Below, piece by piece: positions 1,091-38,612 of a stretch of DNA of 64,000 nucleotides; position 1 is the first letter of the stretch, and each line of letters starts with the position of its first letter. The translations under genes and the position numbers were made by a program. The notes beneath the pieces are model-generated. The model saw only the letters and a list, made by a program, of their open reading frames with translations, searched no databases and was not told where the DNA came from. Origin of the DNA: Actinomycetospora chibensis (lineage in GTDB: Bacteria; Actinomycetota; Actinomycetes; Mycobacteriales; Pseudonocardiaceae). Location: contig NZ_JAQZAM010000001.1 of the NCBI RefSeq assembly GCF_028737215.1, forward strand, positions 310,001-374,000, in the 5' to 3' direction.

Positions 1091-1561
1091 TCAGCCCTTC
1101 TCGATGGCGATGGTCGTGGGTTCCTCGCCCGCGGCCGGCTCGGGCATCGGGACACGGACCGTGAGGATCCCGTCCTTGTAGGACGCGGCCACCGCCGAGG
1201 GGTCCACACCGTCGGGCAGGGGCAGGCGGCGGGCGAAGGTGCCGTAGCGCAGCTCGTGCCGGTGGTAGCCCTTGTCCTCGGTGTCCTCCGCGACCCTGCG
1301 TTCGGCGCGGAGGTCGAGGATCCCGTCGGCGACGGTCAGGCTGAGGTCCTTGTCCGGGTCGATACCCGGCATCTCGGCCTTGATCATTAGGTCACCGTTC
1401 TCCCGGTACTCGTCGACCTTGATCACCTCCTCGGGGGCCCGCATCGCGGGCGGCTCCCACGCCCGCAGGGGAAGGGCGCGCATCCAGTCGTCGAACATCC
1501 GGTCGAACTGTCGGAAGACGTCGGCCGAGCTCGTGGGTGTCTGGCGTCGGATCAATGACAT
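1091..1561 (-). CDS. Hsp20/alpha-crystallin family chaperone (HspX/Acr-like)
   Basis: A 156-aa small heat-shock protein. The alpha-crystallin domain spans about residues 45-145, with the typical 'KAEMPGIDPDKDLSL' strand and the C-terminal 'SYKDGILTVRVP' motif. Such proteins are ATP-independent holdases; the M. tuberculosis homologue HspX/Acr is a hallmark DosR-regulated protein. Start ATG 1561 follows a strong GGAGGTGG ribosome site. It is divergent from the pseudokinase gene, and a DosR-like box (1611-1624) lies 50 nt upstream. A hairpin follows the stop. Confidence 0.92.
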   Translation of the reverse strand: MSLIRRQTPTSSADVFRQFDRMFDDWMRALPLRAWEPPAMRAPEEVIKVDEYRENGDLMIKAEMPGIDPDKDLSLTVADGILDLRAERRVAEDTEDKGYHRHELRYGTFARRLPLPDGVDPSAVAASYKDGILTVRVPMPEPAAGEEPTTIAIEKG

Positions 1562-1610
1562 GTTCTCCACCTCCGGGCCCGACGTTCCGACCCGGCCCGA
1601 TCCACCCCCA

Positions 1611-1624
1611 GGGTCGAAGGACCC
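1611..1624. promoter_or_regulatory. candidate DosR-like box (GGGTCGAAGGACCC)
   Basis: A palindromic 14-mer, GGGTC-GAAG-GACCC, in the divergent gap between hsp20 and the pseudokinase gene, 50 nt from the hsp20 start. It differs at one base from the boxes at 12776 and 13566. The arrangement resembles M. tuberculosis DosR boxes (GGGAC-n4-GTCCC core) upstream of hspX. Confidence 0.65.
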
Positions 1625-1725
1625 GCGACCGGCGTCGTCCGGCCCTCCGGGCGCGGGGCGTGCGGCCGTGCCCTGCTGCCCGCGGCGCTCCGAGACTCGT
1701 GACCAGGACGAGCGGGGAGGACGCG

Positions 1726-3084
1726 GTGGACGAGGTCGACACCCGGGTCGTCGGGGACGCCGAGGGCACGCTGATCGCGGGGCGCTATCGGCTCGGCGGG
1801 CTCCGGGACGCCGACGGACGCCGACGCGTCCACCACGGGTGGGACACCCGGCTCCGCCGGGCCGTCGCCGTGCTCCTCGTCGACCGTGACACCTCCCACA
1901 GTGCTGCCGGTCCCGCGGCGACCGAACCGACGCTGCCCGTGACCCCGGCACACCTGCACCGACCGGGACTCGTCGAGCTCTACGACGGCGGGGTGCACGG
2001 CCGCGAGGTCTTCCTGGTGTGCCAGCTGGTGCCGGGACCGACACTCGCCACGCGCCTGGAGGAGCGACTCGATCCGACCGAGCTCGCCGGCCTCGTGAGC
2101 CGGGCGGCCGAGGCGCTCGGGCCCGTCCATCGGCACGGCGCGGCGCACGGCGCGCTGACCCCCGACCGGGTCCTCCTCGGCGGCGCCCGTCCCATGATCG
2201 CCGAGTGCGGGCTCGCCGAGCTGGTCGAGCGGTGGTCCGGCCTCCCCGGCGACGCCGCCTACCGGGCACCGGAGCAGGACGGCGGGCCGGCGCGGCCCTC
2301 CTCCGACGTGTACGCCCTCGGTCGGATGCTGCTCGAGGCCCGTCTGCGTTCCCCGTGGGGCCGCGAGGCGCGCGCGGTGCGCGCGATGGCGCGCGGGATG
2401 ACGGCGCACGACCCGCGGGTCCGTCCGACGATCGACGAGGTGGCGGTGGGGCTCGCGTCCTGTCGTGACGGGGTCCGCCCGACGCCGCACGGCGCCGCGA
2501 CGACCGCCCGCCTCGTGCGCGGAGCGGCGATCGCCGTGGCCGCGGGCGCGGTGGTGCTCGGCGCGACGACGGCGGCGGCGTTCGACCACGCTCCGGCCGA
2601 CGGCGCGTCGGCCACCCTGGCTCCCCGCGAGCAGGATCCCCCCGCTGCGGCGGCCCCCTCGCCGGGTCGTCCCACGGGGCGCGAGCCGACCGTCCTCACC
2701 GGCGGGGTGTCCCCCGTCGCCTCCGCCGCGACGCACCGGGACCACGACCCCGGACGTCCTCCGGCGACCACCGCGTGGACGCCCGGACCGGACACGACGG
2801 AGCACACCACGGAGCACACCACGGAGCGCACGACGCCGACGAGCGCGCCGACCTCCACGCCGCCTACCGCGTCGCGCACACCGACGCCGACGCGGGCATC
2901 GTCGACCTCTCCCGAGCCGACCTCGTCCGAGCCGACCTCGTCCGAGCCGACCTCGTCCGAGCCGATCTCGTCCGAGCCGACCTCGTCCGAGCCGACCTCG
3001 TCGGAGACCACGGTGCCGGACTCCGGGACCACCGGGCCCGGCGACGGCACCGACGTGGTCACCGGGACGCGAGGATCGCGGTGA
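1726..3084 (+). CDS. membrane-anchored Ser/Thr kinase-like protein (predicted pseudokinase)
   Basis: A 452-aa protein. Residues about 18-255 follow the Hanks-kinase fold (RYRLGGL..., AYRAPEQ, SSDVYALGRMLLE), but the catalytic residues are missing: the VAIK lysine is replaced (VAVLLV), the HRD loop reads HGALTPDRVLL without Asp or Asn, and DFG is ECG. A transmembrane helix at about 265-287 is followed by a long Thr/Pro/Ser extracellular tail ending in SEPTS repeats. Start GTG 1726 was chosen for the GGGGAGG site 5 nt upstream. The protein probably binds rather than phosphorylates. Divergent from hsp20. Confidence 0.75.
   Translation: MDEVDTRVVGDAEGTLIAGRYRLGGLRDADGRRRVHHGWDTRLRRAVAVLLVDRDTSHSAAGPAATEPTLPVTPAHLHRPGLVELYDGGVHGREVFLVCQLVPGPTLATRLEERLDPTELAGLVSRAAEALGPVHRHGAAHGALTPDRVLLGGARPMIAECGLAELVERWSGLPGDAAYRAPEQDGGPARPSSDVYALGRMLLEARLRSPWGREARAVRAMARGMTAHDPRVRPTIDEVAVGLASCRDGVRPTPHGAATTARLVRGAAIAVAAGAVVLGATTAAAFDHAPADGASATLAPREQDPPAAAAPSPGRPTGREPTVLTGGVSPVASAATHRDHDPGRPPATTAWTPGPDTTEHTTEHTTERTTPTSAPTSTPPTASRTPTPTRASSTSPEPTSSEPTSSEPTSSEPISSEPTSSEPTSSETTVPDSGTTGPGDGTDVVTGTRGSR
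2911..3000 (+). repeat. six tandem 15-bp units encoding SEPTS
   Basis: Six consecutive copies of a 15-bp unit close to TCCGAGCCGACCTCG, with one T variant, lie within the extracellular tail of the pseudokinase. The length of 15 keeps the frame, so copy-number changes would alter tail length only. Confidence 0.85.
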
Positions 3085-3136: not shown

Positions 3137-3679
3137 GTGTCCGCGGGGACCGGCCCGGAACGGCCGGGGCTTCCGGGGACGGGGGGCGACGCGGTGTGGT
3201 CCGACGGCGCGGGCGTGATCGTGGGCGTGGCCCCGGGAACCGGGCCACACCCCGAGATCGTGGAGGGCTACCGGGAGGCGCGACGCCGCGGTGTCGGGCT
3301 GCTCGCCCTCACCGCGTACGAGCCGCCCGACTTCTGGGCCGTCGTGCCCGGCTCGCCGCCACCGCCACCGCCACCGCCACCCACGGCGGCCACGCTGCGC
3401 GAGAGCGCCCTGGAGGCGCTGGTGGACACCGTGACGCGCGCGCTCACCGGGGCCGAGCCCGGGGACGTGGACAGGCGCGTGACGTGCGAGGTGGCCCCCG
3501 GAACCGCCCGGGGCGTCCTGGCGGAGGCGTCGACACGGGCGGAGCTGTTGGTGATCGGCACGGCGCGGCGGGCCGAGGCGCGGTACGCCGGGGCGCTCTC
3601 GGTGGCCGCGGACTGTCTGCGGCACGCGCGCTGCACCGTCCGCATCGTGCCGGTCGGCGTCACACCGGGCCGAGCGTGA
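3137..3679 (+). CDS. universal stress protein, single domain with proline tract
   Basis: About 180 aa. The Usp fold begins near VIVGVAPGTG and ends with the typical 'ELLVIGTARR ... CTVRIVPVG' strand-loop. The usual GVDGS nucleotide loop is altered to GVAPGTG, so nucleotide binding may be lost. A run of nine prolines interrupts the region before helix 2. Start choice is uncertain: GTG 3137 has GGGAGG upstream; GTG 3194 after a G-rich tract would give 161 aa. It follows the pseudokinase by 52 nt, and its 3' end overlaps the convergent membrane-USP gene by 20 bp. Confidence 0.65.
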   Translation: MSAGTGPERPGLPGTGGDAVWSDGAGVIVGVAPGTGPHPEIVEGYREARRRGVGLLALTAYEPPDFWAVVPGSPPPPPPPPPTAATLRESALEALVDTVTRALTGAEPGDVDRRVTCEVAPGTARGVLAEASTRAELLVIGTARRAEARYAGALSVAADCLRHARCTVRIVPVGVTPGRA

Positions 3680-4337
3680 CGATCGTCCCGCGCCCGTCCG
3701 ACCCCGCATCGCCGACGCGGGAGCCCTCCGGAGGAGCGGCGAGCAGGACCGGGACCGTCGCGTGCCGGCCGAGCCGGGTGGCCACGTCACCGAGCACGTG
3801 CCGGGTCAGGCCCGCCCCACGACGTCCCAGCACGATCATGGACGCGCCCTTCGCCTCGGCCACGGCCTCGAGGGCCCGGGCGGGCTGACCCGCGACCACC
3901 TCGATCGTCACGTGGCCTGCGGGTGCCGCGGGCCGGAACCACGCGGCGCGCTCGACGAGCGTCGCCCTGGCACGCACCCGGCGCGGGTCGTCCTGCGGAC
4001 CGTCGGCCGCGTCGGGATCCACGACGCTCACCAGGACGACGCGCACCCGCGCGGTGTCGAACAACGTCGCGGCGAGGCGTACCGCCTGGTCCGCGCCGGC
4101 CGATCCGTCGACGCCGACCACGATCGACGTCCCGCTGCCGGGGGCCTGCTCGCTGGACTCGACGACCGCCACGGAGCGGTTCGCCCGCTCGGCGGCGATC
4201 GGGATGAACAGCGGGCCGAACACGGCGCCGAGGACGTACCAGCGCCAGTCGCGGTAGCCCTGCCGGCCCAGGAGGACGAGCGCCGCCAGCACCCCCGCGA
4301 CGATCCACACGATGGCGCCGACGGTGAAGGTGGACAT
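3660..4337 (-). CDS. membrane-tethered universal stress protein
   Basis: A 225-aa protein with two N-terminal hydrophobic helices (about residues 5-24 and 33-48) followed by one full USP domain (SIVVGVDGSAGAD at about 70, MIVLGRRGAGLTRHVLGDVA late signature). The first 50 residues resemble PLDc_N-type two-helix anchors (WRWYVLGAVFGPLFIPIA). The USP domain would sit in the cytosol at the membrane. ATG 4337 is preceded by GAGGAG. Convergent with the proline-tract USP and divergent from the next USP. Confidence 0.85.
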   Translation of the reverse strand: MSTFTVGAIVWIVAGVLAALVLLGRQGYRDWRWYVLGAVFGPLFIPIAAERANRSVAVVESSEQAPGSGTSIVVGVDGSAGADQAVRLAATLFDTARVRVVLVSVVDPDAADGPQDDPRRVRARATLVERAAWFRPAAPAGHVTIEVVAGQPARALEAVAEAKGASMIVLGRRGAGLTRHVLGDVATRLGRHATVPVLLAAPPEGSRVGDAGSDGRGTIVTLGPV

Positions 4338-4534
4338 GCTGGCTCCTCAGAACGGGCGACGTGCGACCCCGGCCCCGCACCCTCGCGCCCACCCGCGCGG
4401 GGCGTCAGAGGCTCCGGTCCCGACCCTGGAGGGCCGTCCTTCCCCTCCCTGCGGCCCGGGCAGGGCTACGAGACCCGGGCGACACCGGTCGAACGCCTCT
4501 GCTGTCCTCCGGCGTGGGCGGACATCCTGGCCCG

Positions 4535-5101
4535 ATGAACGAGGAGCCGTCGGGCCGCGCCGCACCCGCCGCCGCGAGCGGGCACACGGCCCGGGCCGAG
4601 GAGATCGCCCTGGTCGTCGCCGGCTACGACGGCTCGGAGGAGTCCGTCGAGGCCGTGCGCTGGGCCGCCTCGCTGGCCCGACCGACCGGGAGCGCCCTCC
4701 GGGTCGTGTGGGCCTGGAAGATCCGCGACGTCTGGGACACGGCGGTGGCCGCCGACGACCAGCCCACCGGCCCTCACCTGGCCGAGCTCGAGGGGGTCGC
4801 TCGGCTCCACCTCACCGGGGTCCTCACCGGTCTCCTGGGCCAGGACGCCGCGCACGTCGACGTCCACCTGCGCCAGGGGCCCGACTCGGCGGGCATCCTC
4901 CTCCACGCGGCCGCCGACGCGGACCTCCTCGTCGTGGGGTCCCGCGGACGCGGACGCGCCGCCTCGGCCGTCCTCGGTTCCGTGAGCGCCCGCTGCGTGC
5001 GCGAGTCGCCGGTCCCGGTGCTCGTGATCCCGCACCGCATGGTGCGGTCGGCGGCCGCGGGCCCCGAGCCGGTCGCCGTGGGCCGGCGACAGGAGCCGTG
5101 A
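4535..5101 (+). CDS. universal stress protein, single domain
   Basis: A 188-aa protein with one USP domain: VVAGYDGSEESVEAVRWA near residue 28 and the ATP-binding signature LLVVGSRGRGRAASAVLGSVS, followed by the VPVLVIP end strand. The G-x2-G-x9-G(S) motif is intact, so it is probably an ATP-binding type. The N-terminus is a 24-residue Ala/Glu-rich extension. No convincing Shine-Dalgarno precedes ATG 4535, so the start is less certain. It ends 22 nt before the convergent DUF1876 gene. Confidence 0.85.
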   Translation: MNEEPSGRAAPAAASGHTARAEEIALVVAGYDGSEESVEAVRWAASLARPTGSALRVVWAWKIRDVWDTAVAADDQPTGPHLAELEGVARLHLTGVLTGLLGQDAAHVDVHLRQGPDSAGILLHAAADADLLVVGSRGRGRAASAVLGSVSARCVRESPVPVLVIPHRMVRSAAAGPEPVAVGRRQEP

Positions 5102-5123: not shown

Positions 5124-5444
5124 TCAGGACCCTGACGCCGCGACCGGCCCCAGGGCCGGACGTCCGTAGGCGTTCGCGAAGGCGTCGTCGACGGCGCGGT
5201 CGCCGAGGCGGTGACCCAGCTCCACGAGCGCCCGCGCCGCGGCCATCTGCCGCCCGATGAGCGTGACCGAGGGATGGTGCGGCCACCGCACGGCCCGGCC
5301 CTCGACCGCCAGCACCTCCCCCGGGCCGAGGACGTCGTCGGGTGCGCTGTCGAGCACGGCACGGGCCCAGGTGGCGCTGCCGTTCTCGTCCTCGTGCTCG
5401 TCCTCGAAGGTCAGGGTGACCGTCCACGTCCTGGTCGTCGTCAT
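5124..5444 (-). CDS. DUF1876 family protein (Rv1738/Rv2632c-like)
   Basis: A 106-aa protein. 'TWTVTLTFEDEHEDENG', then A-R-A-x-L and later 'GRQMAAARALVELGHRL' match the DUF1876 pattern. In M. tuberculosis the family member Rv1738 is strongly DosR-induced and resembles ribosome hibernation factors in structure. A role in shutting down translation in dormancy is therefore a family-based inference. ATG 5444 was chosen over the longer upstream frame because the homology begins there. A DosR-like box lies 59 nt upstream (5503-5516). It follows PEP synthase in the same direction. Confidence 0.8.
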   Translation of the reverse strand: MTTTRTWTVTLTFEDEHEDENGSATWARAVLDSAPDDVLGPGEVLAVEGRAVRWPHHPSVTLIGRQMAAARALVELGHRLGDRAVDDAFANAYGRPALGPVAASGS

Positions 5445-5502: not shown

Positions 5503-5516
5503 GGGCCGGAGGTCCC
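5503..5516. promoter_or_regulatory. candidate DosR-like box (GGGCCGGAGGTCCC)
   Basis: A GGGCC-GGAG-GTCCC palindrome in the 79-nt gap between the PEP synthase stop and the DUF1876 start, placed to drive DUF1876. Confidence 0.55.
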
Positions 5517-5523
5517 GCCGGGC

Positions 5524-7851
5524 TCAGGGTCGCTCGCGGGCGGCGTCGAGCAGCACCCGGCGCTCGGCCCGCCCGACGGCCGCCCGCACACCGTCGACGG
5601 CGTGGGGGTCGACCGAGATCGCCGTGATACCGGCGCGCACCAGGATCTCGGCGAACTCCGGGCGACGGGTCGGCGCCTGGCCGCACAGGGAGGACGGAGC
5701 GCCGAGGCGGCGCGCCGTGGCGATGATCCGCTCGATGGCGTCGACGACGGCGGCGTCGCCCTCGTCGTAGACCTCGGCGCACCGGTCGCTGTCGCGGTCG
5801 ACCCCGAGCACGAGCTGGGTGAGGTCGTTGCTGCCGATCGAGACCCCGTCGATGCCGCACCCGAGGTACTCGGGGAGCCGGAAGACGACCGAGGGCACCT
5901 CGGCGGTCAGCCACCGCTGCAGGCCGCGCTGCCGTCCGAGGGGACTCGCGTCGATCAGCTCGAGGCAGCCCTCGAGCTCCCATCGCGTGCGGACGAACGG
6001 CAGCATCACGTGCAGGCTCGGGTGCTGCTCGCGGACGCGGGCGAGAGCCCGCAGCTCCAGGGCGAACACCTCGGGCTCGCGCAGGTAGCGGTAGGCCCCG
6101 CGGAAGCCCAGCATCGGGTTGTTCTCGGACGGCTCGTGGCGCTCTCCCCCGGCCAGCCCGCGGAACTCGTTGCTGCGCAGGTCGGTGGTCCGGTACACGA
6201 CGGGACGCGGCGCGAACGCAGCGGCGATGGTGCCCACCGACTCGGCCACGCGGTTGACGAAGCGCTCCTGCTCCCCGCGGGCCACTACCTCACGCGGATG
6301 CACGCCGTCGAGCGCGGCGGTCAGCAGGAACTCCGCGCGGAGCAGACCGACGCCGTCCACGTCCGGTCGGGCCGCGACTCGCGCGGCCGCCTCGGGCAGG
6401 GCGAGGTTCACGTGGATCTCGGTGCCGAGCGGCGTGGGAGCGCCCGCCGGCCCGGCTACGGGGGCGGAGGCCACGCCCGGCCGCACCGCGACCGCAGCGG
6501 AGGGCGTCGTCGCGACGGTGCCGCGGGACGTGCGATCGCCGTCGGTGATCTCCCCGGTGGCGCCGTCGACGGTGACGATCCGCCCGTCGGCGAGGATGTC
6601 CGTCGCCCGGCGGGTCCCGACGACGCACGGCAGGCCGAGCTCGCGCGCGGCGATCGCCGCGTGGCACGTCGCACCCCCGGTGTCGGTCACCACGCCCGCG
6701 GCGCGGCGCAGCGTCGGCAGCCAGTCCGGGTTGGTCAGCGGTGCGACGAGCAGCTCCCCCTGCTGCAGCGCCCCGCCCTCGTCGGGCGACCGCAGGACAC
6801 GGACCGGGCCGGACACGCGACCCGGAGCAGCGGGGAGGCCGCGCAGCAGGACCTCGCCCGGGTCTCCGGCGGCCCGGTGACCCTCGAGCCCCGTGGTGAT
6901 CGGGCGGGCCTGGAGCAGCCGGAGCCGGTCGCCCGCGTAGGCCCACTCGACGTCCTGCGGTCGTCCGTAGTGCTCCTCGACGCGGCGGGCGAGCGCGGCG
7001 ACGTCCATGATCTCGGCGAGGGCGAGCACCGGGGCACCGCCGCGGTCCGGCTCCAGGGCGACGGTGAGGTCGGCCCCGTCGGGTCCGCGCACGACCGCAT
7101 GGGTCTGCATCCCGACGCGCATCGAGCGCAGCCGCAGCCCGTCGGCCACGACCTCGTAGGTGTCCGGCTCGACGGCCCCGCTCACCACGACCTCGCCCTG
7201 GCCGAGAGCCGCCTCGATGAGCACGAGGTCGCGCTCGCCCGTGCGCGGATCGGCCGTGAACGCCACCCCGGCCCGGTCGGCGGCGACCATGGTCTGCACG
7301 ACCACCGCGATCGCGGGCTCCGCGGTGAGGCCCCGCGCGGCCCGGTACGCCACCACGCGGGCACCGAACAGGGAGGCCCAGCAGTCGACGATGCGGGTCA
7401 CCAGCTCGTCCGCGTCGCGGACGTTGGTGAAGGTGGAGTTCATCCCGGCGAAGGACGCCTCCGCGCCGTCCTCGCCCACGGCCGACGAGCGGACGGCGAC
7501 GACGGGGGCGCCCAGGCGATCCCACGCGGCGCGGACGTGGTCGGCGAGCGCCGGGGGCATCCCCGCCCCGCGCACCTTCTCCGCCAGCGCGGTGCACAGC
7601 TCCGGCAGGCGCTCGGGCCCGGCGGTCAGCGCCTCCTCGTGACCGGTCGCGAGGGCGGCGCGGATGCCGGCGGCATCCATCGCCGACCGGTAGGACTCCG
7701 CCGGCAGGACGAACCCGTCGGGTACGGGGAACCCCGCGGCGATCAGCTCACCGAGGTGGGCGGCCTTGCCACCGACGTCCCCCGCGTCGCGGGCGCGCAC
7801 CTCGGCGAGGGGCCGCACGGCGGTGGTCGGACGCTCGGTGGTGGTGGTCAT
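5524..7851 (-). CDS. ppsA: phosphoenolpyruvate synthase
   Basis: A 775-aa protein, close to the usual 790 aa. The order is the N-terminal ATP-grasp PEP/pyruvate-binding domain (KAAHLGELIAAGFPVPDGFV start; AVRSSAVGEDGAEASFAGM), the swivelling phosphohistidine domain with GGATCHAAIAARE (catalytic His about residue 395), and the C-terminal TIM barrel with the SIGSNDLTQ and CGQAP motifs (catalytic Cys about 721). It converts pyruvate + ATP to PEP + AMP + Pi, supporting gluconeogenesis. The ATG at 7851 is preceded by GGGAGG. A DosR-like box lies 96 nt upstream. Confidence 0.92.
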   Translation of the reverse strand: MTTTTERPTTAVRPLAEVRARDAGDVGGKAAHLGELIAAGFPVPDGFVLPAESYRSAMDAAGIRAALATGHEEALTAGPERLPELCTALAEKVRGAGMPPALADHVRAAWDRLGAPVVAVRSSAVGEDGAEASFAGMNSTFTNVRDADELVTRIVDCWASLFGARVVAYRAARGLTAEPAIAVVVQTMVAADRAGVAFTADPRTGERDLVLIEAALGQGEVVVSGAVEPDTYEVVADGLRLRSMRVGMQTHAVVRGPDGADLTVALEPDRGGAPVLALAEIMDVAALARRVEEHYGRPQDVEWAYAGDRLRLLQARPITTGLEGHRAAGDPGEVLLRGLPAAPGRVSGPVRVLRSPDEGGALQQGELLVAPLTNPDWLPTLRRAAGVVTDTGGATCHAAIAARELGLPCVVGTRRATDILADGRIVTVDGATGEITDGDRTSRGTVATTPSAAVAVRPGVASAPVAGPAGAPTPLGTEIHVNLALPEAAARVAARPDVDGVGLLRAEFLLTAALDGVHPREVVARGEQERFVNRVAESVGTIAAAFAPRPVVYRTTDLRSNEFRGLAGGERHEPSENNPMLGFRGAYRYLREPEVFALELRALARVREQHPSLHVMLPFVRTRWELEGCLELIDASPLGRQRGLQRWLTAEVPSVVFRLPEYLGCGIDGVSIGSNDLTQLVLGVDRDSDRCAEVYDEGDAAVVDAIERIIATARRLGAPSSLCGQAPTRRPEFAEILVRAGITAISVDPHAVDGVRAAVGRAERRVLLDAARERP

Positions 7852-7946: not shown

Positions 7947-7960
7947 GGGCGGAAGGTCCC
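7947..7960. promoter_or_regulatory. candidate DosR-like box (GGGCGGAAGGTCCC)
   Basis: GGGCG-GAAG-GTCCC, sharing the GAAGGTCCC half with the boxes at 12776 and 13566. It lies upstream of ppsA in the gap after the MarR gene. Confidence 0.5.
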
Positions 7961-8023: not shown

Positions 8024-8542
8024 TCACGCGGGTGCGCCCTCGTCCGAGTCGGGCACGCCGGGATCGGCGGTGTCCTCGCGCAGGAGCCGACGACGCAGGT
8101 GGTTGACGTCGCCGGCTCGGAGGCGGAGGGCTGCGGCGAGCTGATCGAGCATCTCGGCCAGCTCGTCGAGGTGGTCGATCGGCACGTCCTCGAGGGCCGT
8201 GTGGACGTCCTCCCGGAAGAGACGCCCCATGATCTCGGCGACGCGACGACCGCGCGGGGTCAGGTCGACGAGCGTGCTGCGTCGATCGGTCGGATGGGGA
8301 CGCCGCGCCGCCAGGCCCCGCGTCTGCATCCGGTCGACGAGCGCCGTGCCTGCCGGCGCGCTCACTCCCAGTCGGGCGGCGAGCAGCGACACCGGAACGG
8401 GGCCCTGCCGGCCGAGATCCGCCAGCGTGAGCACCTCGCCGACCCCGAGCCCGAGCACGTCCGCGAAGGCCCGGCGGTAGGCGTCGACGGCCAGCACCAG
8501 GTCACGCATCCGGTCGGGCATGTCCGTCCGACTGGTGTCCAC
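8024..8542 (-). CDS. MarR family transcriptional regulator
   Basis: A 172-aa winged-helix protein. The core is 'LTLADLGRQGPVPVSLLAARLGVSAPAGTALVDRMQTRGLAARRPHPTDRRSTLVDLTPRGR', with the DxR wing motif (DRRS) typical of MarR dimers. GTG 8542 has GGGAGG just upstream, with short spacing. ATG codons upstream (in PMSRV) and downstream are alternatives. It lies between ppsA and a tandem USP, all on the minus strand, with 71 nt to the USP. The ligand is unknown. Confidence 0.8.
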   Translation of the reverse strand: MDTSRTDMPDRMRDLVLAVDAYRRAFADVLGLGVGEVLTLADLGRQGPVPVSLLAARLGVSAPAGTALVDRMQTRGLAARRPHPTDRRSTLVDLTPRGRRVAEIMGRLFREDVHTALEDVPIDHLDELAEMLDQLAAALRLRAGDVNHLRRRLLREDTADPGVPDSDEGAPA

Positions 8543-8613: not shown

Positions 8614-9519
8614 CTACCGTGAGGCCCCGGAGCGCCCGCCCGGACCCGGGGGCACGATCGCCACCGGGCACGTCGCCCTCCGCACGAGGCCGGGGCGCGT
8701 CCGCGGGCGGCGATGCCGCAGCCGGCCGTGCTCCCCCACCCCGAGGACCACGAGCTCCGCGTCGCGGGCCTGGTCGGCCAGCACCCGGTCCGCGCGCTCC
8801 TCGGCGAGGACGACACGGACTCCGACCGGACGCTCCGAGCCCAGCTCGGGGACGTCCTCGTCGAGCAGCCGCACGTCCTTGCCCGCCCGCACCACCACCA
8901 GGGGAGCCCCGCGGGACACGGCCCGGACAGCGGCGAACCGCAGAGCGGCCCGACAGCCCTCCGTGCCGTCGTCCCCGACCACGACGGGGGCGTGACCCTC
9001 CGCCCTCTCGCGCGCCTGCGCGTCGCAGTGGTGGGGCACGAGGACGACCGGAATGGCGACCTCACCGGCGAGGCCCCGGGTGGTCCTGCCCAGGGCGAGC
9101 TCGCCGAGCCTGCCGAACCCGTCGCTGCCGAGGACGAGCAGGGAGGCGACGCGCGCCTGGGCCCGCAGCACCGCGACAGGATCGCTCTCGACGAGGTCCT
9201 CGACGATCGGGACGTCCGGGGCGACGTCGCGGGCGACGAGCCGCATGTCGCGCAGTTCCTGCCGGGCCAGGGAGAAGAGGCCCCGCTCGGCGTCGACGCC
9301 GACGAACGAGCGCCCCGGATAGCCCCCGCGGGGGACCACCAGCCCGTGCACCAGCCGGAGCGCGACGCCGCGGTCCCGGGCCTCGGCGGCGGCCCAGTGG
9401 ACCGCGGCTCGGGCCCGTCCCCCGAGGGGCACGCCCACCACGACGTCGGCACCCGCCCGGGGCGTCGGTGCTGCTGGTGCGGGGGCGCCCACCGGCGCGG
9501 AGACCCTCGGATCCGACAC
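8614..9519 (-). CDS. universal stress protein, two USP domains
   Basis: A 301-aa tandem-USP protein. Domain 1 runs from about residue 25 (ADVVVGVPLGGRARAAVHWAA) to VPVVLVPH; its nucleotide loop is altered (GVPLGG rather than GVDGS). Domain 2 starts at APVVVGDDGTEGCRAAL and ends with CPVAIVPPGP. GTG 9519 has an ideal GAGGAGG site 6 nt upstream. Two DosR-like elements (9575, 9640) lie upstream in the gap shared with the divergent DUF4389 gene. Confidence 0.85.
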   Translation of the reverse strand: MSDPRVSAPVGAPAPAAPTPRAGADVVVGVPLGGRARAAVHWAAAEARDRGVALRLVHGLVVPRGGYPGRSFVGVDAERGLFSLARQELRDMRLVARDVAPDVPIVEDLVESDPVAVLRAQARVASLLVLGSDGFGRLGELALGRTTRGLAGEVAIPVVLVPHHCDAQARERAEGHAPVVVGDDGTEGCRAALRFAAVRAVSRGAPLVVVRAGKDVRLLDEDVPELGSERPVGVRVVLAEERADRVLADQARDAELVVLGVGEHGRLRHRRPRTRPGLVRRATCPVAIVPPGPGGRSGASR

Positions 9520-9574
9520 GGCCCACCTCCTCGTCCTCACCGCAATGGTCACGACCCCCGGCGAGCGAGGGCCA

Positions 9575-9639: not shown

Positions 9640-9653
9640 GGGCCGTTCGGCCC
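9640..9653. promoter_or_regulatory. candidate DosR-like box (GGGCCGTTCGGCCC)
   Basis: A perfect 14-bp palindrome in the divergent gap, 61 nt upstream of the DUF4389 gene and about 120 nt from the USP start. One of the cleanest copies of the element in the window. Confidence 0.65.
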
Positions 9654-9714: not shown

Positions 9715-11199
9715 ATGACCACGACGAAGGACGCACTGCAGGCCTCTCCCCCGTCGGGGCCCGTGGCCTATCCGGTCCGGGTGCGTGGCGACCTGGACCC
9801 CGGGCTCTCGCGCTGGCTGTGGCTGCTCAAGTGGATCCTCGCCATCCCGCACTGGATCGTCCTGGCGTTCCTCTGGGTGGCGTTCGCCATGGTCACGGTG
9901 GTCGCGTTCGTCGCGATCCTCGTCACCGCCCGCTACCCGCGGGTGCTCTTCGACTTCGCGGTCGGGGTGCTGCGATGGTCCTGGCGCGTGGCGTTCTACA
10001 CCAACGCCGCCTTCGGCACCGACCGCTACCCGCCCTTCTCCCTCCGGCCCGACCCCACCTACCCGGCGGACCTCGAGGTCGATGTCCCGGAGCACCTGTC
10101 GCGCGGCCTCGTGCTGGTCAAGTGGTGGCTGCTGGCGCTCCCCCACTACGTCGTGGTCGGGCTCCTGATCTCGAGTCCCTGGTGGATCTGGGAGGACCAG
10201 AACTACCAGTGGACGGTCGGGGCCGGCGGCCTGGTGGGGCTGCTGGCCCTCATCGGGATCGTCGTGCACGCCGTCAGCGGCACCTACCCGCGCGCCCTGT
10301 TCGACATGATCATCGGCTTCGACCGGTGGGTGCTGCGGGTGGCCGGCTACGTCACCCTCATGACCGACCGCTACCCGCCGTTCCAGCTCGACATGGGTCC
10401 GCGTGAGCCCGCCGACCGGCCCGTCGAGCGGCCCGTCGACCCCGACACGGCGCCGGCGCCCTCACCGGCGCCCGAACGGTCGGGATGGAGCGCGGGCCCG
10501 GTGGTCGCGCTCGCGCTCGGCGCCCTGCTGTGCCTGGGTGCCGTACCCCCGCTCGTCGGCGGGACGACCGGCCTCGCGGCCGACTCGACCGCGCGCGACG
10601 CCGCGGGCCTGCTGACGACGCCGCCGACGCGGCTGACCGACGCGGGGTACGCGCTGCGCTCCCCGGGGATGCTCCTCGAGGCGGCCGGCCCGGCGATGTA
10701 CTCCCCGTACGCCGCTCTCGGCACGGTCCGGGTGCGGGCCACCGCCCTCGACCCCGGGCGTCCGGTGTTCGTGGGCGTCGCCCCCCGCGCGGACGTGGAC
10801 CGCTACCTGGCCGGCGTGGCGTCGGGCACGGTCGTGGGTGACCGCGACGGCACCGGCACGGAGGACGGCCCGGTCGTCCTCGCCCAGCCCGGCGGCGCGC
10901 CGCCGGTGCCGCCCCAGGAGGCGGGCATCTGGACCACGTCGGTCTCCGGGCCGGGCGTGCAGTCGGTCGCGTGGCGTCCGGCGCCGGGCGACTGGACCCT
11001 CGTGGTCCTCCAGCCCGACGGGCGACCGGGCGTCGACGTGGCCGTCGACGTGGGCGCCACGGTGCCGGGTCTGCGGACGCTCGCCGTCGGGCTGCTGGTG
11101 GTCGGCGGGGTGCTCCTCGCCCTCGGCGCCACGATGGTGACGGCCGCGGTGTCCACGGCCCACCGCCGCCGCAGGACGGCCACCGGCGCGACCGCCTGA
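9715..11199 (+). CDS. DUF4389 domain membrane protein
   Basis: A 494-aa protein with two DUF4389-type repeats. Each has a 'LLKWILAIPHWIVLAFL' or 'LVKWWLLALPHYVVVGLL' helix, a second hydrophobic segment and a 'YPRVLFDF / YPRALFDM ... RYPPFSL / RYPPFQL' motif. After about residue 260 come a single helix, a 200-aa probably extracytoplasmic domain, and a final helix near residue 455-480 followed by an Arg-rich tail. The function is unknown; the family is common beside USP genes in actinobacteria. ATG 9715 follows GAGGGAG. A clean DosR-like box lies upstream. Confidence 0.85.
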   Translation: MTTTKDALQASPPSGPVAYPVRVRGDLDPGLSRWLWLLKWILAIPHWIVLAFLWVAFAMVTVVAFVAILVTARYPRVLFDFAVGVLRWSWRVAFYTNAAFGTDRYPPFSLRPDPTYPADLEVDVPEHLSRGLVLVKWWLLALPHYVVVGLLISSPWWIWEDQNYQWTVGAGGLVGLLALIGIVVHAVSGTYPRALFDMIIGFDRWVLRVAGYVTLMTDRYPPFQLDMGPREPADRPVERPVDPDTAPAPSPAPERSGWSAGPVVALALGALLCLGAVPPLVGGTTGLAADSTARDAAGLLTTPPTRLTDAGYALRSPGMLLEAAGPAMYSPYAALGTVRVRATALDPGRPVFVGVAPRADVDRYLAGVASGTVVGDRDGTGTEDGPVVLAQPGGAPPVPPQEAGIWTTSVSGPGVQSVAWRPAPGDWTLVVLQPDGRPGVDVAVDVGATVPGLRTLAVGLLVVGGVLLALGATMVTAAVSTAHRRRRTATGATA

Positions 11200-11211: not shown

Positions 11212-11715
11212 TCACGCTCGCGCGGTCCGGGCCGTCGCCCCGCCGGCCGTCGCCGCGGCCGGCGGGGTGGTCGGGACGGGTACGACCAGCACCGGGCAGG
11301 GAGCGTGCAGCACGCAGCCCAGACCGACCGAACCCAGCGCGACGCTGCGGAACGCCCCGCGGCCCCGGTGTCCCACGACGAGGAGGTCCGCGTCGCGCGC
11401 GGCCTCGAGGAGCACCTCGGTCGGGTGGCCGGCGTGCGCCCGGACCTGCACGTCCACCCCGTGGTCGGGCTCGGTGGCCATCACCCGGTCGACCTGCGCG
11501 CGGGCCCGCCGGTCGAGCTCCGCCTGGAGCTCGCCCTCCTCGCCCAACGGCAGGTCGAGGTACTCCGCGAGCGTCAGACCGCGACGTTCCCAGGCCGAGA
11601 CGACCTCGAGCCGCCCTCCGAGCCGGGCGGCTTCCCGGAGCGCTGTCCGCAGGGCCGCGTCCCCGTGCTCGGAGCCGTCGACCCCGACGACCACCAGCGG
11701 CATCTGCTCCGACAT
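11212..11715 (-). CDS. universal stress protein, single domain
   Basis: A 167-aa protein with [20 protein letters not shown] at the N-terminus and the intact ATP signature [39 protein letters not shown] 11715 is chosen with GAAGGG 8 nt upstream; the in-frame GTG 11724 would overlap that site. An Ala/Thr-rich tail follows the last strand. Convergent with the DUF4389 gene, 12 nt apart. It is the last member of a minus-strand series that includes the DosR-like regulator. Confidence 0.88.
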   Translation of the reverse strand: MSEQMPLVVVGVDGSEHGDAALRTALREAARLGGRLEVVSAWERRGLTLAEYLDLPLGEEGELQAELDRRARAQVDRVMATEPDHGVDVQVRAHAGHPTEVLLEAARDADLLVVGHRGRGAFRSVALGSVGLGCVLHAPCPVLVVPVPTTPPAAATAGGATARTARA

Positions 11716-12739: not shown

Positions 12740-12775
12740 GACCACGAGCCTGGCCGCCCCGGCGAGGGCCCGTGA

Positions 12776-29397: not shown

Positions 29398-29752
29398 CGT
29401 TCCCCGGGGCCTCGCCCTCCCGCCCGACCGGCCTCCGCAACCCGGAGGACCGGGGGGACGTGCTCGCTCAGCCTGTGGCGCGATGACGTCGCCGACGTGT
29501 CCCCACGACCGGCTCCAGCGCCACGGTCTCGGTCTCGGTGGCCTGTCGGATACCGGTGGGAGCGGGCCCCTCCCCCGCAGCATGGTTCCCCGTCACGGTT
29601 CGACGATCGCACGTGGGTCGCCGTGCCGGGCAGGCATCTCCGGGCCCTCGGTCGCGTCCCGACGGGCCCACCGGCCCTGCTCGACGGGGCTTCACAGTGG
29701 GGATCTGGTCTCCTCGGCCCGAGCGGCCGGGTTCGACGACAGGAGGAGATCC
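29398..29752. other. 355-nt gap with no confident gene
   Basis: A weak hairpin (CCTCCG-CAACC-CGGAGG, near 29432-29448) may terminate the channel transcript. The rest is presumably promoter for the second hsp20; no clear DosR-like palindrome was seen. Frames in this stretch look like shadows. Confidence 0.45.
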
Positions 29753-30382
29753 ATGGCCACCACGACGCGGGGCCGGCGCGCCGGTACCCACGAACGCACC
29801 GATCCCGCAGCAGCGACGGCGGCGGGCACCTCGACCGAGACCGCCACCACCGCCACGGCGGAGAGCGCGACCGACACCGCACAGCCCGCACCGTCGGGCG
29901 GCATGTCCGGCGCCCTCGTCCGCGGTGCCCGTGCGGTCGTCGGCACGTTGAGCGCACCGGTCTCCGACAGCCTGCTCGGCCGGCGCCCGCGCGTGAGCAC
30001 GATCGCGGTGGACGAGCGCGTCGAGGACGATGCCGTCGTCGTCGACGCTGAACTGCCCGGCTTCGCCCCCGGCGACATCACCGTCGCCGCTGAGGGCGGT
30101 CGGCTACTCCTGCACGCGGTGCGCGACGCCGGTCCGGAGAACGCTCGACCGGACACCGCCCGCCAGCGGCGCCGCGAGCGGCGGACGGGCACCTTCCACC
30201 GCGAGCTCGCCATCCCGCCGGACACCGACCCGTCGACGATCACCGCGTCCTACGCCGACGGCGTGCTGACCGTCCGCATGCCCCTGCCGGCGCCACGGAC
30301 GCCGACTGAGCGCGTCGAGATCCCCGTGCGGCACGACGAGCGGGCCGCTGGCGGCGACACGGAGGGCGGGAGTCCGTCCTGA
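29753..30382 (+). CDS. Hsp20/alpha-crystallin family chaperone, second copy
   Basis: A 209-aa protein. A low-complexity Ala/Thr-rich N-terminus (1-75) precedes an alpha-crystallin domain: 'DDAVVVDAELPGFAPGDITVAAEGGRLLLHAVR' and 'ASYADGVLTVRMPLP'. It is more diverged than the copy at 1091 and has the longer N-terminal arm. ATG 29753 follows an excellent AGGAGGAG site. Convergent with the DUF6920-like gene. Confidence 0.88.
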   Translation: MATTTRGRRAGTHERTDPAAATAAGTSTETATTATAESATDTAQPAPSGGMSGALVRGARAVVGTLSAPVSDSLLGRRPRVSTIAVDERVEDDAVVVDAELPGFAPGDITVAAEGGRLLLHAVRDAGPENARPDTARQRRRERRTGTFHRELAIPPDTDPSTITASYADGVLTVRMPLPAPRTPTERVEIPVRHDERAAGGDTEGGSPS

Positions 30383-34992: not shown

Positions 34993-35529
34993 TCAGCGGG
35001 CCGCGACGGGGCCGGGCCGCAGCCGGCCGGCGACGAGCAGCGTCACGCCCTCGATGACGATCTGGATTCCGAGCAGGAGGCCCAGCAGGGACGGGACGGC
35101 GATGGTCAGGTTGAAGAGCACGACCAGACCCAGAATGATCGACAGGATCCCGCTGACGATCAGCAGGGAACGGGCCTGTGGCACCTGGGCCCCGGCGAAC
35201 AGCCGGGTCACGCCCACGACGAGGAACAGCGTGCCCGCCAGGAACGTGAGCGCCGCGGCCCCCGCCAGCGGGTCGCGGACGATGATCACGCCGAGCACGA
35301 TGAGCACTGCCCCGCCGAGCGCTGCGGACCAGGAGACGCCGGAGTCGCGGCGGACGAAGGCGCCCACCAGCGTCACCACACCCGATCCGATCGCGATCCA
35401 GCCCAGGAACAGCACGGACAGGATCGTCGCGATCACCGCGTTGCCCAGCACCAACAACCCGGCCAGCAGCAACAGGATCCCGAGCGCGACGTCCCAGCCG
35501 GTCCTGCGTCGTTCCATGACGGTCGCCAT
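34993..35529 (-). CDS. HdeD family (DUF308) membrane protein
   Basis: A 178-aa protein with six helices in three pairs: 'DVALGILLLLAGLLVLGN', 'ILSVLFLGWIAIGSGVVTLVGAF', 'AALGGAVLIVLGVIIVRDPL', 'ALTFLAGTLFLVVGVTRLFAGAQV', 'LLIVSGILSIILGLVVLF', 'LLGLLLGIQIVIEGVTLLVAG'. Typical HdeD/DUF308 acid- or stress-related membrane protein. ATG 35529 has AAGGAG 6 nt upstream. First gene of a co-directional series reaching 30440, with a DosR-like box 58 nt upstream. Confidence 0.9.
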   Translation of the reverse strand: MATVMERRRTGWDVALGILLLLAGLLVLGNAVIATILSVLFLGWIAIGSGVVTLVGAFVRRDSGVSWSAALGGAVLIVLGVIIVRDPLAGAAALTFLAGTLFLVVGVTRLFAGAQVPQARSLLIVSGILSIILGLVVLFNLTIAVPSLLGLLLGIQIVIEGVTLLVAGRLRPGPVAAR

Positions 35530-35586: not shown

Positions 35587-35601
35587 GGGACCTTCGGACC
35601 C
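35587..35601. promoter_or_regulatory. candidate DosR-like box (GGGACCTTCGGACCC)
   Basis: A 15-nt near-palindrome GGGACC-TTC-GGACCC, 58 nt upstream of the HdeD gene that begins the minus-strand USP/SpoIIAA series. Confidence 0.55.
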
Positions 35602-35683: not shown

Positions 35684-35697
35684 GGGCCGGAAGGCCC
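35684..35697. promoter_or_regulatory. candidate DosR-like box (GGGCCGGAAGGCCC)
   Basis: GGGCC-GGAA-GGCCC palindrome in the same divergent gap, 106 nt upstream of the 69-aa plus-strand gene. Confidence 0.5.
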
Positions 35698-35802: not shown

Positions 35803-36012
35803 ATGTTCGAGTCGGCCCTGCACGAAGGGATCACCCGGGCACAGGAAGGGTTGCGGCGGGCCCGCCGCGAGGACCTCCCCCACGAGGTGACCGCCTACGC
35901 CGCGCGCCTCCTGGACCTGGTGGACCGGGCTCGTGAGAACGGGATCGACACCACGGCCTGGGTGGACCCGGAGCTCATGGCCGCCGCACAGGCGTCAGCC
36001 GGAGACACCTGA
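35803..36012 (+). CDS. hypothetical 69-aa helical protein
   Basis: A small acidic helical protein ('FESALHEGITRAQEGLRRARREDLPHEVTAYAARLLDLVDRARENGIDTTAW'). No family recognised. Start is ATG 35803 or ATG 35794; GGAGAGG lies just upstream. Convergent with the KAS III-like gene. The divergent gap carries two DosR-like boxes. Confidence 0.55.
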   Translation: MFESALHEGITRAQEGLRRARREDLPHEVTAYAARLLDLVDRARENGIDTTAWVDPELMAAAQASAGDT

Positions 36013-36047: not shown

Positions 36048-38015
36048 CTACTCGCCGAAGGCCACCCGGACGTCGTCGGTCGTGGTCGGTGTCCGGCGTG
36101 CCGGACCTCCGCGCCCACTCTCGACGGGGTCGGGCACCACTTCGTCGGCCACGATCGCGGGGTCGATGCGGAGGACCGCGTAACCACCCACGGCCCCGGC
36201 CCCGAAGCCGGGAGCGAAGATCCTCGCAGGGCGGTCGATCGCGCCGTCGCGCACGGCATCGTGGATGGCGATGGGAATGCTCGCGGCCGAGACGTTGCCC
36301 ATGGACTCGATGTTGAAGTAGAGCTGGTCGGCCGACAGCCCGGCCTTGGCGGCGAGGTCGAGGATCATCGTCTTGTTCGCCTGGTGCGGGACGATGAGCT
36401 CGATGCTCTCCAGCAGGCTGCGCCCGGGGTCGTCGGGGTCGGTCTGCTCGGAGAGCTCGCCGAGCATCTGGTCCAGGTAGCGCTGCACCAACGACTTGAC
36501 CTCGGGGCCGTAGACGGTGATGTCGTTGTCGAACTCCGGGTTCGGCCAGATGATCGAATTGACCTCCGACGCCGGACCGCTCGCGTAGGTCTGCAGGACC
36601 TCGACGTCGACCGGGGCGCCCTCCGCGGCCGGAGCCACGACCATCGCCGACGCCCCGTCGCCGAAGATCATTCTCGACGTGCGCGCGCTCCCGATCTTGT
36701 CGGAGAACTTCTCGACGCACACCAGCAGCACGGGCCGTCGGACCTCCTGGATCTGCCGGACCGCCTCGGCGAGCCCGTAGGGCAGTCCGGCACAGGCGGC
36801 GACCATGTCCATCGACGTGTGGGTCTGCGCCAGCCCCAGCTCGCCGGACACCCAGCAGGCGATGGACGGAATCTGGCGGTTGCTGGTGCAGGTGCTGACC
36901 AGGACCGCGCCGATCTCGTCGGGGGAGCGGCCGGACTTCCCGAGCGCCGCCCGCGCGGCGTCCAGCGCGAGGTGCTGCGGCTCGCGGGACGTGTAGCGCC
37001 GCTGGCGGATCCCGGTCTTGCGGCCGATCTCCTCGGCGCTCATCGGTGACCACGAGAAGCTGGCGTTGCGGATGACGTCGTCGTTGTCGCAGACGTGCTC
37101 ACCGCGCACCACGGCCAGGGCCTCCAGCGCCGGCCGCACCGCGAAGGCCTCGCGCACCCTCACCGCCGGGTACGGCGTGCGGGGCGACACCGTCTCGACC
37201 GGCACCCTCGGCGTCTCCGGGGCGGTGGGGCCCGTGTCGCGCGCCTGCTTGACCCGATCGATGAACGCCGTGACGTCGCGGTTGCGCGGGTGGAAGGTGA
37301 CGACGAAGTCGTCGGGGCCGATGTCGGCGGGGTGGCGCAGCGTCGTCCGGGAACCGTCCCAGGGATACAGGTTGTGCAGCACCATCGCCCAGCGCATGAG
37401 GGCTTCGAGCTCGGGCACCTCCTCGTCGGCGTCGAGGATCTCGTCCACCGGGAAGAGGTGGTGATCGGGATCGTGGTCGGGCATGACGAAGGTCAGGGCC
37501 TCGGGTTGCGCGAGGAACTCGGCGACGGTCGGCTTGATCGCCGGGAGCTCGGTGGCGTGGTGGAGCTTGTGCCGGAACACGTCGAACAGCAGGGCGAAGA
37601 CCCGGTCCTCGGTGTCGGCGACCCAGCGCGGCGGCAGGTCGTGGAACGCACGCTCGACCGCCGCGACCTTGCGGTCACGGTCCTCCCACGGCGTCAGCAC
37701 CGGGAGGAAGACGTCGTCGCGGTGCCGGGGCACGTCACGCCACCGCATCGGGCGCTTGTCGAACATCGTCATCGAGTACCGGTTGACCCAGAACAGGTTC
37801 TGCCCGAGGTCGCGCAGCAGCTCGAAGCGGCTCGGGTAGGAGCCGCTCTCCACGCGGTGGAGGATGTCGGTCCCCGTCGGGGCCTTCGCCTCGAAGTCCC
37901 GCTCGATGACGGCGGTGAACTGCTCGAGCGTGTCGAGGACCGAGAAGTCCATCTCGCCGAAGAAGTTGGCCGGGAAGACGAGGCGACCACTCCGGTTGAT
38001 CACGAACGGCTTCAC
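36048..38015 (-). CDS. ketoacyl-ACP synthase III-like protein with 300-aa N-terminal extension
   Basis: A 655-aa protein, about twice the usual KAS III length. Residues about 305-640 are the thiolase-fold domain, with the active-site triad Cys (VAACAGLPYG, about 407), His (IVPHQANK, about 540) and Asn (SMGNVSAASIP, about 575). The first 300 residues have no recognised domain ('NRSGRLVFPANFFGEMDFSVLDTLEQF', 'LWVNRYSMTMF'). It presumably condenses acyl-CoA/ACP substrates or transfers acyl groups. GTG 38015 has GAAGGTG upstream; ATG 38114 would add 33 residues without a ribosome site. Confidence 0.8.
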   Translation of the reverse strand: MKPFVINRSGRLVFPANFFGEMDFSVLDTLEQFTAVIERDFEAKAPTGTDILHRVESGSYPSRFELLRDLGQNLFWVNRYSMTMFDKRPMRWRDVPRHRDDVFLPVLTPWEDRDRKVAAVERAFHDLPPRWVADTEDRVFALLFDVFRHKLHHATELPAIKPTVAEFLAQPEALTFVMPDHDPDHHLFPVDEILDADEEVPELEALMRWAMVLHNLYPWDGSRTTLRHPADIGPDDFVVTFHPRNRDVTAFIDRVKQARDTGPTAPETPRVPVETVSPRTPYPAVRVREAFAVRPALEALAVVRGEHVCDNDDVIRNASFSWSPMSAEEIGRKTGIRQRRYTSREPQHLALDAARAALGKSGRSPDEIGAVLVSTCTSNRQIPSIACWVSGELGLAQTHTSMDMVAACAGLPYGLAEAVRQIQEVRRPVLLVCVEKFSDKIGSARTSRMIFGDGASAMVVAPAAEGAPVDVEVLQTYASGPASEVNSIIWPNPEFDNDITVYGPEVKSLVQRYLDQMLGELSEQTDPDDPGRSLLESIELIVPHQANKTMILDLAAKAGLSADQLYFNIESMGNVSAASIPIAIHDAVRDGAIDRPARIFAPGFGAGAVGGYAVLRIDPAIVADEVVPDPVESGRGGPARRTPTTTDDVRVAFGE

Positions 38016-38219
38016 GGCATCACCTTCGGCGTCCTGCGAGCGATGGCCGGCCAGCCACGTGGTCGCCCACTCTAGGAGAGCGGAGAGGCTGCGGGGTCCG
38101 CGCGAGCGCGTCATGGGCCGAACGCGACCCCGCGGCCCTCCTGCGTCGCCGCTGCATCGGTCGGCACCACGGGACGCCCGGGACGCCGGCCGGCCGGTCG
38201 GGTCACGGCCGGCCGCGGG

Positions 38220-38516
38220 TCACCCGGCGGGCGTCAGGGCGAGGGACGCGGCGAGGATCCGCGTGAACGCCTCGAGATCGTCGCGGTCCACATCGACCGG
38301 AAGCGCGTCGAGCTCGCCACGCAGATCCTCGAGCAGGTCGCGTCGCGCCTGCTCGTCCAGTGGCTCGGGACGGTGCTCGAGCGGCCCGCAGGCGCCGACG
38401 AGGCGACGGGTGAACCCTTCGTGCGCGTACTCGATGATCTCGGTGGTGTCGACGCCGCGGGAGCGGGTCAGTCGGGCGGTGATGGTCGCGGACCAGGGCC
38501 GGAAGGACGAATTCAT
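38220..38516 (-). CDS. hypothetical 98-aa protein
   Basis: ATG 38516 sits behind a strong GAGGAGG site. The protein is small, acidic in its C-terminal half, and helical ('EQARRDLLEDLRGELDALPVDVDRDDLEAFTRILAASLA'), with an N-terminal 'SSFRPWSATITARLTRSRG' segment. No family recognised. A clear DosR-like box lies 83 nt upstream, so it is probably a member of the same regulon. Confidence 0.65.
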   Translation of the reverse strand: MNSSFRPWSATITARLTRSRGVDTTEIIEYAHEGFTRRLVGACGPLEHRPEPLDEQARRDLLEDLRGELDALPVDVDRDDLEAFTRILAASLALTPAG

Positions 38517-38598
38517 GATGTGCCTCCTCGTAGTGATTGCATCGAGAGAGTCATCTCCCGACTCCGGCATCGACCAGTGCACCTCGGCACCGAAAGGC

Positions 38599-38612
38599 GG
38601 GTCCTTGGTCCC
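38599..38612. promoter_or_regulatory. candidate DosR-like box (GGGTCCTTGGTCCC)
   Basis: GGGTC-CTTG-GTCCC upstream of the 98-aa gene; the last clear element before the regulon boundary. Confidence 0.55.

Follow-up and report, generated by a model that had tools for sequence, protein, structure and literature searches.

The closest described systems to the locus analysed here are the OsdR/OsdK regulon of Streptomyces coelicolor (SCO0167-SCO0219) and the DosR/DevR regulon of Mycobacterium tuberculosis. In S. coelicolor, genes for universal stress proteins (USPs), PPDK, nitroreductase and other stress proteins are clustered around the regulator, whose own gene is preceded by a box; the box consensus, AGGGCCGATCGGCCCT, has been tested in Streptomyces by electrophoretic mobility shift assay, and only the regulon core is common to Streptomyces and mycobacteria (PMC5069765). 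For M. tuberculosis, PMC2275270 gives the DosR consensus as TTSGGGACTWWAGTCCCSAA and lists the units Rv0079, Rv1733c, Rv1997, Rv2006, Rv2031c, Rv2032, Rv2625c and Rv2626c. Here we examine a 64,000-nucleotide stretch of Actinomycetospora chibensis, family Pseudonocardiaceae (the window, positions 310001-374000 of contig C11), in which the initial annotation had recognized eleven copies of a GGG-n8-CCC palindrome and read them as marks of a DosR-type dormancy superlocus. That reading is borne out by a DevR orthologue with an identical recognition helix, a DevS-type kinase, a box equal to that of OsdR, DosR-type target families and boxes in related genomes. The palindrome is, very probably, the DevR/OsdR box of the regulator encoded at 12816-13454, through which a DevS-type kinase and phosphorylated DevR (DevR-P) would activate a stress island of roughly 105 kb.

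The Actinomycetospora locus shares with the Streptomyces system the box, the regulator family, the box before the regulator gene and the grouping of stress genes (USP, PPDK, nitroreductase and others) around the regulator. It differs in that regulator and kinase lie 73 kb apart, the island extends over ~105 kb and holds 29 of the 62 USP matches in the genome, boxes precede cydA and the gene of a RafH orthologue, and a kinase-less DevS paralogue is present. Nitrate reductase is part of the Streptomyces cluster; none is found among the annotated island genes, in which no search aimed at nitrate reductase was made. With the M. tuberculosis regulon the locus has in common homologues of DevR and DevS, RafH, the Rv1733c family, and the Hsp20, USP, nitroreductase, CBS, P-type ATPase and glycoside hydrolase family 65 (GH65) families, together with a GGG-n8-CCC box with inner C and G; the spacer edges are G/C here and T/A in the DosR consensus. 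Here one island holds the bulk of the targets, in contrast to the Rv units listed for M. tuberculosis, which are scattered over many loci (PMC2275270), and one of the two DevS-like proteins here is without a kinase domain. A regulon of this kind is not new. Particular to this one are how large the island is, the separation of the regulator and kinase genes, and the presence of a kinase-less sensor.

The regulator gene (12816-13454, minus strand, start corrected to 13454) encodes a receiver and a LuxR-type domain (Pfam Response_reg and GerE). Among solved structures, the best match of its product is M. tuberculosis DevR (PDB 3c3w, E 8.4e-88), and the 11 residues of the recognition helix are identical in the two proteins; judged by its sequence, the gene is the DevR/DosR/OsdR orthologue, and it is called devR below. 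The window palindrome likewise equals the published OsdR box. A different LuxR/NarL-type or unrelated regulator might instead own the box, devR being merely one of its targets: the genome holds 48 GerE matches, and there is a MarR gene at 8024-8542. The identity of the recognition helix and of the box nevertheless argues against such an owner, as does the absence of box clusters, among the matches listed, from three near-complete devR-less genomes, and we consider it quite improbable.

The eleven listed palindromes are all present in the sequence at the positions noted, and their placement in promoter gaps, outside called genes, holds for 11/11 once four gene starts (DUF4389, DUF305, DUF308 and DevR) are corrected; genes were called with a home-made caller, and the corrections were made after the sites had been seen. 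As one element the eleven stand in part: six (1611, 9640, 12776, 13566, 20029 and 38599) fit the exact core GGGNCSWWSGNCCC (GGG-N-C-S-W-W-S-G-N-CCC), while 986 is a poor match and 1009 a better one in the same gap. In the window, the near-identical pattern GGGNCSWWVGNCCC is found at 8 places, which give 16 strand matches, compared with a mean of 0.83 and a maximum of 6 strand matches in 100 shuffles. Because this pattern was read off the sites, more weight is carried by an independent matrix built from 25 published S. coelicolor OsdR sites, which we scanned over 244 kb of contig C11 at a cut-off score of at least 9, taking upstream gaps of at least 60 bp as promoters and C11:234-349 kb as the island. 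This score was reached by 28 of 80 promoters in the island and by 1 of 81 elsewhere (26/79 and 1/81 with uncorrected gene starts); among 500 palindrome-preserving column permutations of the matrix, the mean was 2.1 island promoters and the maximum 22, and none reached 28. The box-to-start distance is 25-125 bp for 30 of 40 site-gene pairs. No -10 hexamer TANNNT was seen near these 40 pairs, which is uninformative, given that one strand of the whole 244-kb stretch holds no more than 43.

That the palindromes arise by chance or as a structural by-product of DNA of 74% GC, for instance as terminator-like hairpins, predicts equal density in genes and in gaps. In the island, box density by the OsdR matrix is 1.78 per kb in gaps and 0.17 per kb in genes (gaps given first); outside it, the corresponding values are 0 and 0.20 per kb to the left and 0.09 and 0.10 per kb to the right. 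The equal intragenic density that had been named beforehand as telling against a regulon is therefore not seen on contig C11, intragenic density in the island being about a tenth of gap density. Genome-wide (6.18 Mb, 55 contigs), GGGNCSWWSGNCCC occurs at 47 places, 15 of them within one 120-kb stretch, C11:250645-370144 (binomial p 9e-15, for a span picked post hoc). Chance finds some support in the reversed control pattern, which occurs at 21 places, and in the 32 exact matches outside this stretch, of which 21 lie inside called genes and 11 do not (one of the latter precedes a USP gene on C16 by 100 bp, and another the gene of a 460-aa protein on C36 by 87 bp). Against it stand the excess over shuffles (16 strand matches to 0.83), permuted matrices that never reach the real count, and box positions that are kept in relatives while the inner bases vary, as at hsp20 and DUF1876; we rate this explanation as extremely unlikely. 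Two other USP clusters of the genome have boxes in 2/39 (C33, ~369-407 kb) and 0/18 (C30, 1-8 kb) of their promoters, so the box does not simply track USP genes, and these clusters are probably under other control.

Conservation was followed across nine related genomes (ten stretches), using a matrix of the OsdR sites plus the 15 exact C11 sites (distinct from that of the independent scan) and a threshold of 1 per 5 kb. Where the gene of the window genome has a box, 36 of 61 orthologue promoters have one over threshold; for genes that lack one in the window genome, the count is 35 of 135 (p=1e-5, the pairs not being independent). The hsp20 box lies at exactly 40 bp in 4/4 relatives, in three of which its bases differ from those of the window; a second hsp20 gene (29753-30382) has an over-threshold box in 3/3 relatives (distance 74 bp in one, 139 bp in the other two), and the DUF1876 gene one at 36-42 bp upstream in 3/3. 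At devR, a box GGGACGTTCG[AG]CCC is over threshold in 6/10 orthologue places. None over threshold was found in the other four, namely G002, G008, G009 and the second copy in G003 (G numbers denote genomes, G000 being that of the window); in the first three of these the reading frame immediately before devR is that of a DevS-type kinase. A. callitridis, whose DevR is 97% identical and whose colinear blocks around devR have ~87-95% DNA identity, keeps 14/14 bases at 1611 and 986, 13/14 at 12776, 13566, 29664, 1009 and 35587 (the last with one gap), and in 60 kb offers merely a poor match to 60144; it is too close a species for single sites to say much.

Among 18 Actinomycetospora genomes compared, 15 are near-complete, and 12 of these carry a close DevR (at least 84%), the remaining three (G004, G013 and G017) having only a 39-45% paralogue. 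Among the matches listed (for G013, 32 of 39 places), the devR-less genomes have at most two pattern matches per 30 kb; the maximum per 30 kb, again among the matches listed, is 8 in the window genome, 10 in G001, 7 in G002 and 5 in G003. USP matches number 5, 7 and 7 in the three devR-less genomes and 8-62 in the 12 devR-bearing ones, with the window genome highest. Within one genus, species that have devR and species that lack it form a natural experiment on the core targets, and sister species can be compared for how the module as a whole is gained, lost and expanded.

Several observations weigh against assigning the boxes to a DevR regulon. Total pattern counts barely separate the two groups of genomes (39 places in devR-less G013, 26 in devR-bearing G012), and clustering was used for the comparison instead for this reason. 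Over-threshold boxes are absent from 25 of the 61 orthologue promoters of boxed genes, including those of the PPDK/ppsA-like gene in 3/3 relatives and of the RafH gene in the single relative tested, and the DUF308 gene has one in only 1/4 relatives. In 60 kb of A. callitridis, 5503, 7947, 9640, 35684 and 38599 are without a match. Scores with the Streptomyces matrix are no higher than 7.7 at sites 13566 and 12776 and below 3 at 1611 and 38599; overall, five of the eleven listed sites score at least 9, two 7.7, one (7947) 6.1 and three (986, 1611, 38599) below 3, an unevenness that suggests that the window boxes are partly a dialect of their own. Finally, the island edges and the 120-kb span were initially drawn from the sites themselves; when the island is bounded by USP genes instead, the scan gives 22/65 promoters inside and 7/96 outside (p=2e-5).

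No kinase gene was seen adjoining devR in the window. A DevS-type kinase of 573 aa with GAF, HisKA_3 and HATPase domains is encoded outside it, at C11:248165-249886, 73 kb left of devR; its first GAF domain matches the heme domains of DevS and DosT (E ~1e-49) and keeps the HPPM stretch, which we take to contain the heme-ligand histidine, and its ATPase domain matches that of DevS (E 1e-22). As a DevS-type kinase frame lies directly upstream of devR in six relatives (G002, G005, G008, G009, G010 and G016), the split arrangement in the window genome probably reflects rearrangement of a usual pair.

Close to the kinase gene lies that of a DevS paralogue (444 aa, C11:253975-255309), separated from the divergent CBS-devS operon by the box at C11:250645, which stands between that operon and its own. 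It has a GAF-GAF architecture, and the first GAF domain matches the DosT and DevS heme domains (E ~1e-43). In 13/13 genomes aligned, its H-box reads LSE, LNA or LNT in place of LHD, the H of which is presumably the phospho-acceptor, and the ATPase domain is absent. The paralogue is present in 12/12 near-complete devR-bearing genomes and in 0/3 devR-less ones; among incomplete genomes, G011 has the paralogue but no detected DevR, in G010 only the DevS is seen, and G014 has neither. Eight of the 13 retain the HPPM stretch, which is missing or changed in five (G002, G005, G008, G009 and G016), and heme binding would therefore not be a constant property of the paralogue. Its neighbours suggest a modulator of DevS. 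We tentatively propose, as a possibility somewhat short of even, that in Actinomycetospora this histidine- and ATPase-less paralogue (GAF-GAF plus a remnant dimerisation helix) is a dedicated third part of the DevR system, which would be kept wherever devR is kept and would tune or gate the kinase by pairing with DevS, while the island would grow and shrink with devR in the genus (5-7 USP matches without it, 8-62 with it). A literature search for kinase-less DevS or DosT proteins found none, and among the papers listed in further searches (10 of 1,510 and 8 of 292) none mentions Actinomycetospora; subscription papers were mostly outside the reach of these searches, and we make no claim of absence in print.

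The superlocus had been placed at 1091-38612. A box-rich island is indeed found there, of which that span covers only a part, the island starting near C11:242-245 kb, ~65 kb left of the window. Beyond the window it encodes the RafH orthologue (E 4.5e-36; boxes at 36 and 90 bp upstream), two members of the Rv1733c family above the NCBIfam cut-off, cytochrome bd subunit I (cydA, box at 80 bp), two nitroreductases, and CBS, pyridoxamine-oxidase-like, M50 peptidase, phosphoribosyltransferase and AAA proteins. Of 77 loci in other genera, 57 and 51 have homologues of the two nitroreductases no more than 10 kb from devR. The core target families of the DevR/OsdR regulon that we find are USP, Hsp20, RafH, Rv1733c, nitroreductase, CBS and PPDK. 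Among 125 island proteins, 25 have homologues close to devR in 5 or more of these 77 other-genus loci; among 137 proteins from outside the island, 3 do. RafH and the Rv1733c family were compared here with their Rv counterparts; the pairing of other island genes with particular Rv genes is presumptive.

From these elements we infer a pathway in which signal, phosphotransfer, binding by the window DevR and activation are all read from sequence. The DevS-type kinase, through its heme-type GAF domain, probably senses low oxygen, nitric oxide (NO) or redox state and would phosphorylate DevR; DevR-P would bind the boxes, most of which lie 25-125 bp ahead of a start codon, and activate the island, that is, the USPs, Hsp20, the PPDK/PpsA-like enzyme, the RafH-type ribosome hibernation factor and the Rv1733c-type membrane proteins, as well as CBS proteins, cytochrome bd, devR itself and the devS operon. 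The same boxes and regulator could also serve a regulon whose chief signal is neither hypoxia nor NO (but development, osmotic stress or starvation), as is partly so with Streptomyces OsdR; this differs from the proposed pathway in the signal alone. Such a shift would fit a regulon of which only the core is common to Streptomyces and mycobacteria (PMC5069765). The HPPM stretch kept in the kinase and the boxes before the cytochrome bd and RafH genes point the other way, and we hold a different signal to be unlikely, if well worth keeping in mind. The DevR/OsdR regulon, best known from dormancy in tuberculosis and development in Streptomyces, would extend to a soil genus, and the co-occurring kinase-less sensor, if its proposed role is true, would give a testable model for the tuning of heme sensors.

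The families that had been named behind the sites (hsp20, DUF1876, ppsA, USP, DUF4389, DUF305 and HdeD) are all confirmed by Pfam matches, and the boxes, to which no strand is assigned, can be followed along the window. At its left end, a DevR-like box at 1009-1022 (GGGCCGATGGTCGC, OsdR matrix 9.4) lies upstream of a tandem USP gene that starts at 721 and continues left of the window (USP matches at C11:309843-310688). The site at 986-999 in the same gap is disfavoured as a box relative to 1009, scoring 1.1 and not fitting the core; speaking for it, 14/14 bases are unchanged in A. callitridis, within a flank that is 87% identical. The open reading frame (ORF) at 721-1209 had been put forward as a new regulon member, a proposal we abandon in favour of the tandem USP gene that this gap serves: comparison with A. 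callitridis shows single-base gaps in the long form of the ORF, the final 64 codons of which stop precisely at the start of the tandem USP. The short form, which has no gaps and 3/5/11 mismatches by codon position in that comparison, might conceivably be a small leader ORF. The hsp20 gene (1091-1570, minus strand, PF00011) has its predicted DevR box at 1611-1624 (GGGTCGAAGGACCC), between it and a kinase-like gene.

Further to the right, good matches beyond those listed are found at 4431, 11851, 29664 and 60144. The first of these DevR-like boxes (4431-4444, GGGCCGTCCTTCCC, score 12.9) lies between the divergent USP genes 3660-4337 and 4535-5101. The Rv2632c-like DUF1876 protein (5124-5444, minus strand, PF08962) has a predicted DevR box at 5503-5516 (score 9.7), and a weak DevR-like box at 7947-7960 (score 6.1) lies upstream of the gene for a phosphoenolpyruvate synthase/PPDK-like (ppsA-like) enzyme (5524-7851, minus strand; PF01326, PF00391 and PF02896). 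The highest score of the 244-kb stretch, 18.3, belongs to the predicted DevR box at 9640-9653 (GGGCCGTTCGGCCC), between a tandem USP gene (8614-9555, minus strand) and the gene of a DUF4389 membrane protein (9715-11199, plus strand, start corrected, PF14333); the tandem USP, missed by the gene caller, is assigned from a USP match at C11:319034-319444 and its translation, with an inferred start position. A USP gene at 11212-11724 (minus strand, PF00582) has a DevR-like box 126 bp upstream (11851-11864, GGGACCTAGGGCCC), overlapping the 3' end of 11856-12242.

The same sequence, GGGTCGAAGGTCCC, forms the predicted DevR boxes on either side of devR. That at 13566-13579 belongs to the devR promoter, where it would serve autoregulation, and is followed by a USP gene upstream of devR (13585-14067, minus strand, PF00582). 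That at 12776-12789 lies 30 bp before the start of 12389-12745 (minus strand), which encodes a small putative membrane protein that matches no Pfam or NCBIfam family. Its earlier designation as a new regulon member is supported in part: homologues 63-71% identical occur in G003, G006 and G015, and the box is well placed, but no box over threshold is present in the one relative tested, and A. callitridis keeps 13/14 bases of the box with no homologue of the protein in the stretch compared. We therefore list it as a possible member.

A cation P-type ATPase (15020-17509, plus strand, Pfam), which we take to resemble CtpF, has homologues near devR in 14 of the 77 other-genus loci. The DUF305 gene (20078-20746, plus strand, start corrected, PF03713) has a predicted DevR box 35 bp from its start (20029-20042, GGGCCCTTCGGCCC, score 14.6). 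It is adjoined by the gene of a GH65 enzyme (20765-23206), homologues of which lie near devR in 6 of those 77 loci. The second hsp20 gene has a DevR-like box at 29664-29677 (score 13.2). Between the gene of a DUF308 (HdeD-like) membrane protein (34993-35529, minus strand, start corrected, PF03729) and that of a small conserved protein of 69 aa (35803-36012, plus strand) are a predicted DevR box at 35587-35600 (GGGACCTTCGGACC, score 11.3) and a second, DevR-like box at 35684-35697 (GGGCCGGAAGGCCC, score 9.2). The 69-aa protein, also proposed earlier as a new member, is a plausible one, being 94% identical in A. callitridis, with 2/2/9 mismatches by codon position, and sharing this gap with the DUF308 gene. 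The ORF at 38220-38516 (minus strand), not assigned to a family, has no relative among the sequences compared; the DevR-like box upstream of it (38599-38612, GGGTCCTTGGTCCC) has the exact core, scores 2.1 and is not alignable in A. callitridis. An outlying DevR-like box at 60144-60157 (GGGCCCATCGGCCC, score 15.2) lies 61 bp before the start of 60219-61250.

We also note some further features of the island. At its right end, a 655-aa protein (36048-38015) combines a FabH-like ketoacyl synthase III in its C-terminal half with an N-terminal part of ~300 aa without a Pfam match. Left of the window, two paralogous ~96-aa proteins without Pfam matches (C11:263810-264100 and C11:271864-272157) are 49% identical, and the second has a box 84 bp upstream. 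Finally, a 695-bp duplication, 95% identical, comprises a CBS gene and upstream box-like sequence, its two copies (C11:278763-279457 and 297519-298185) lying ~19 kb apart.

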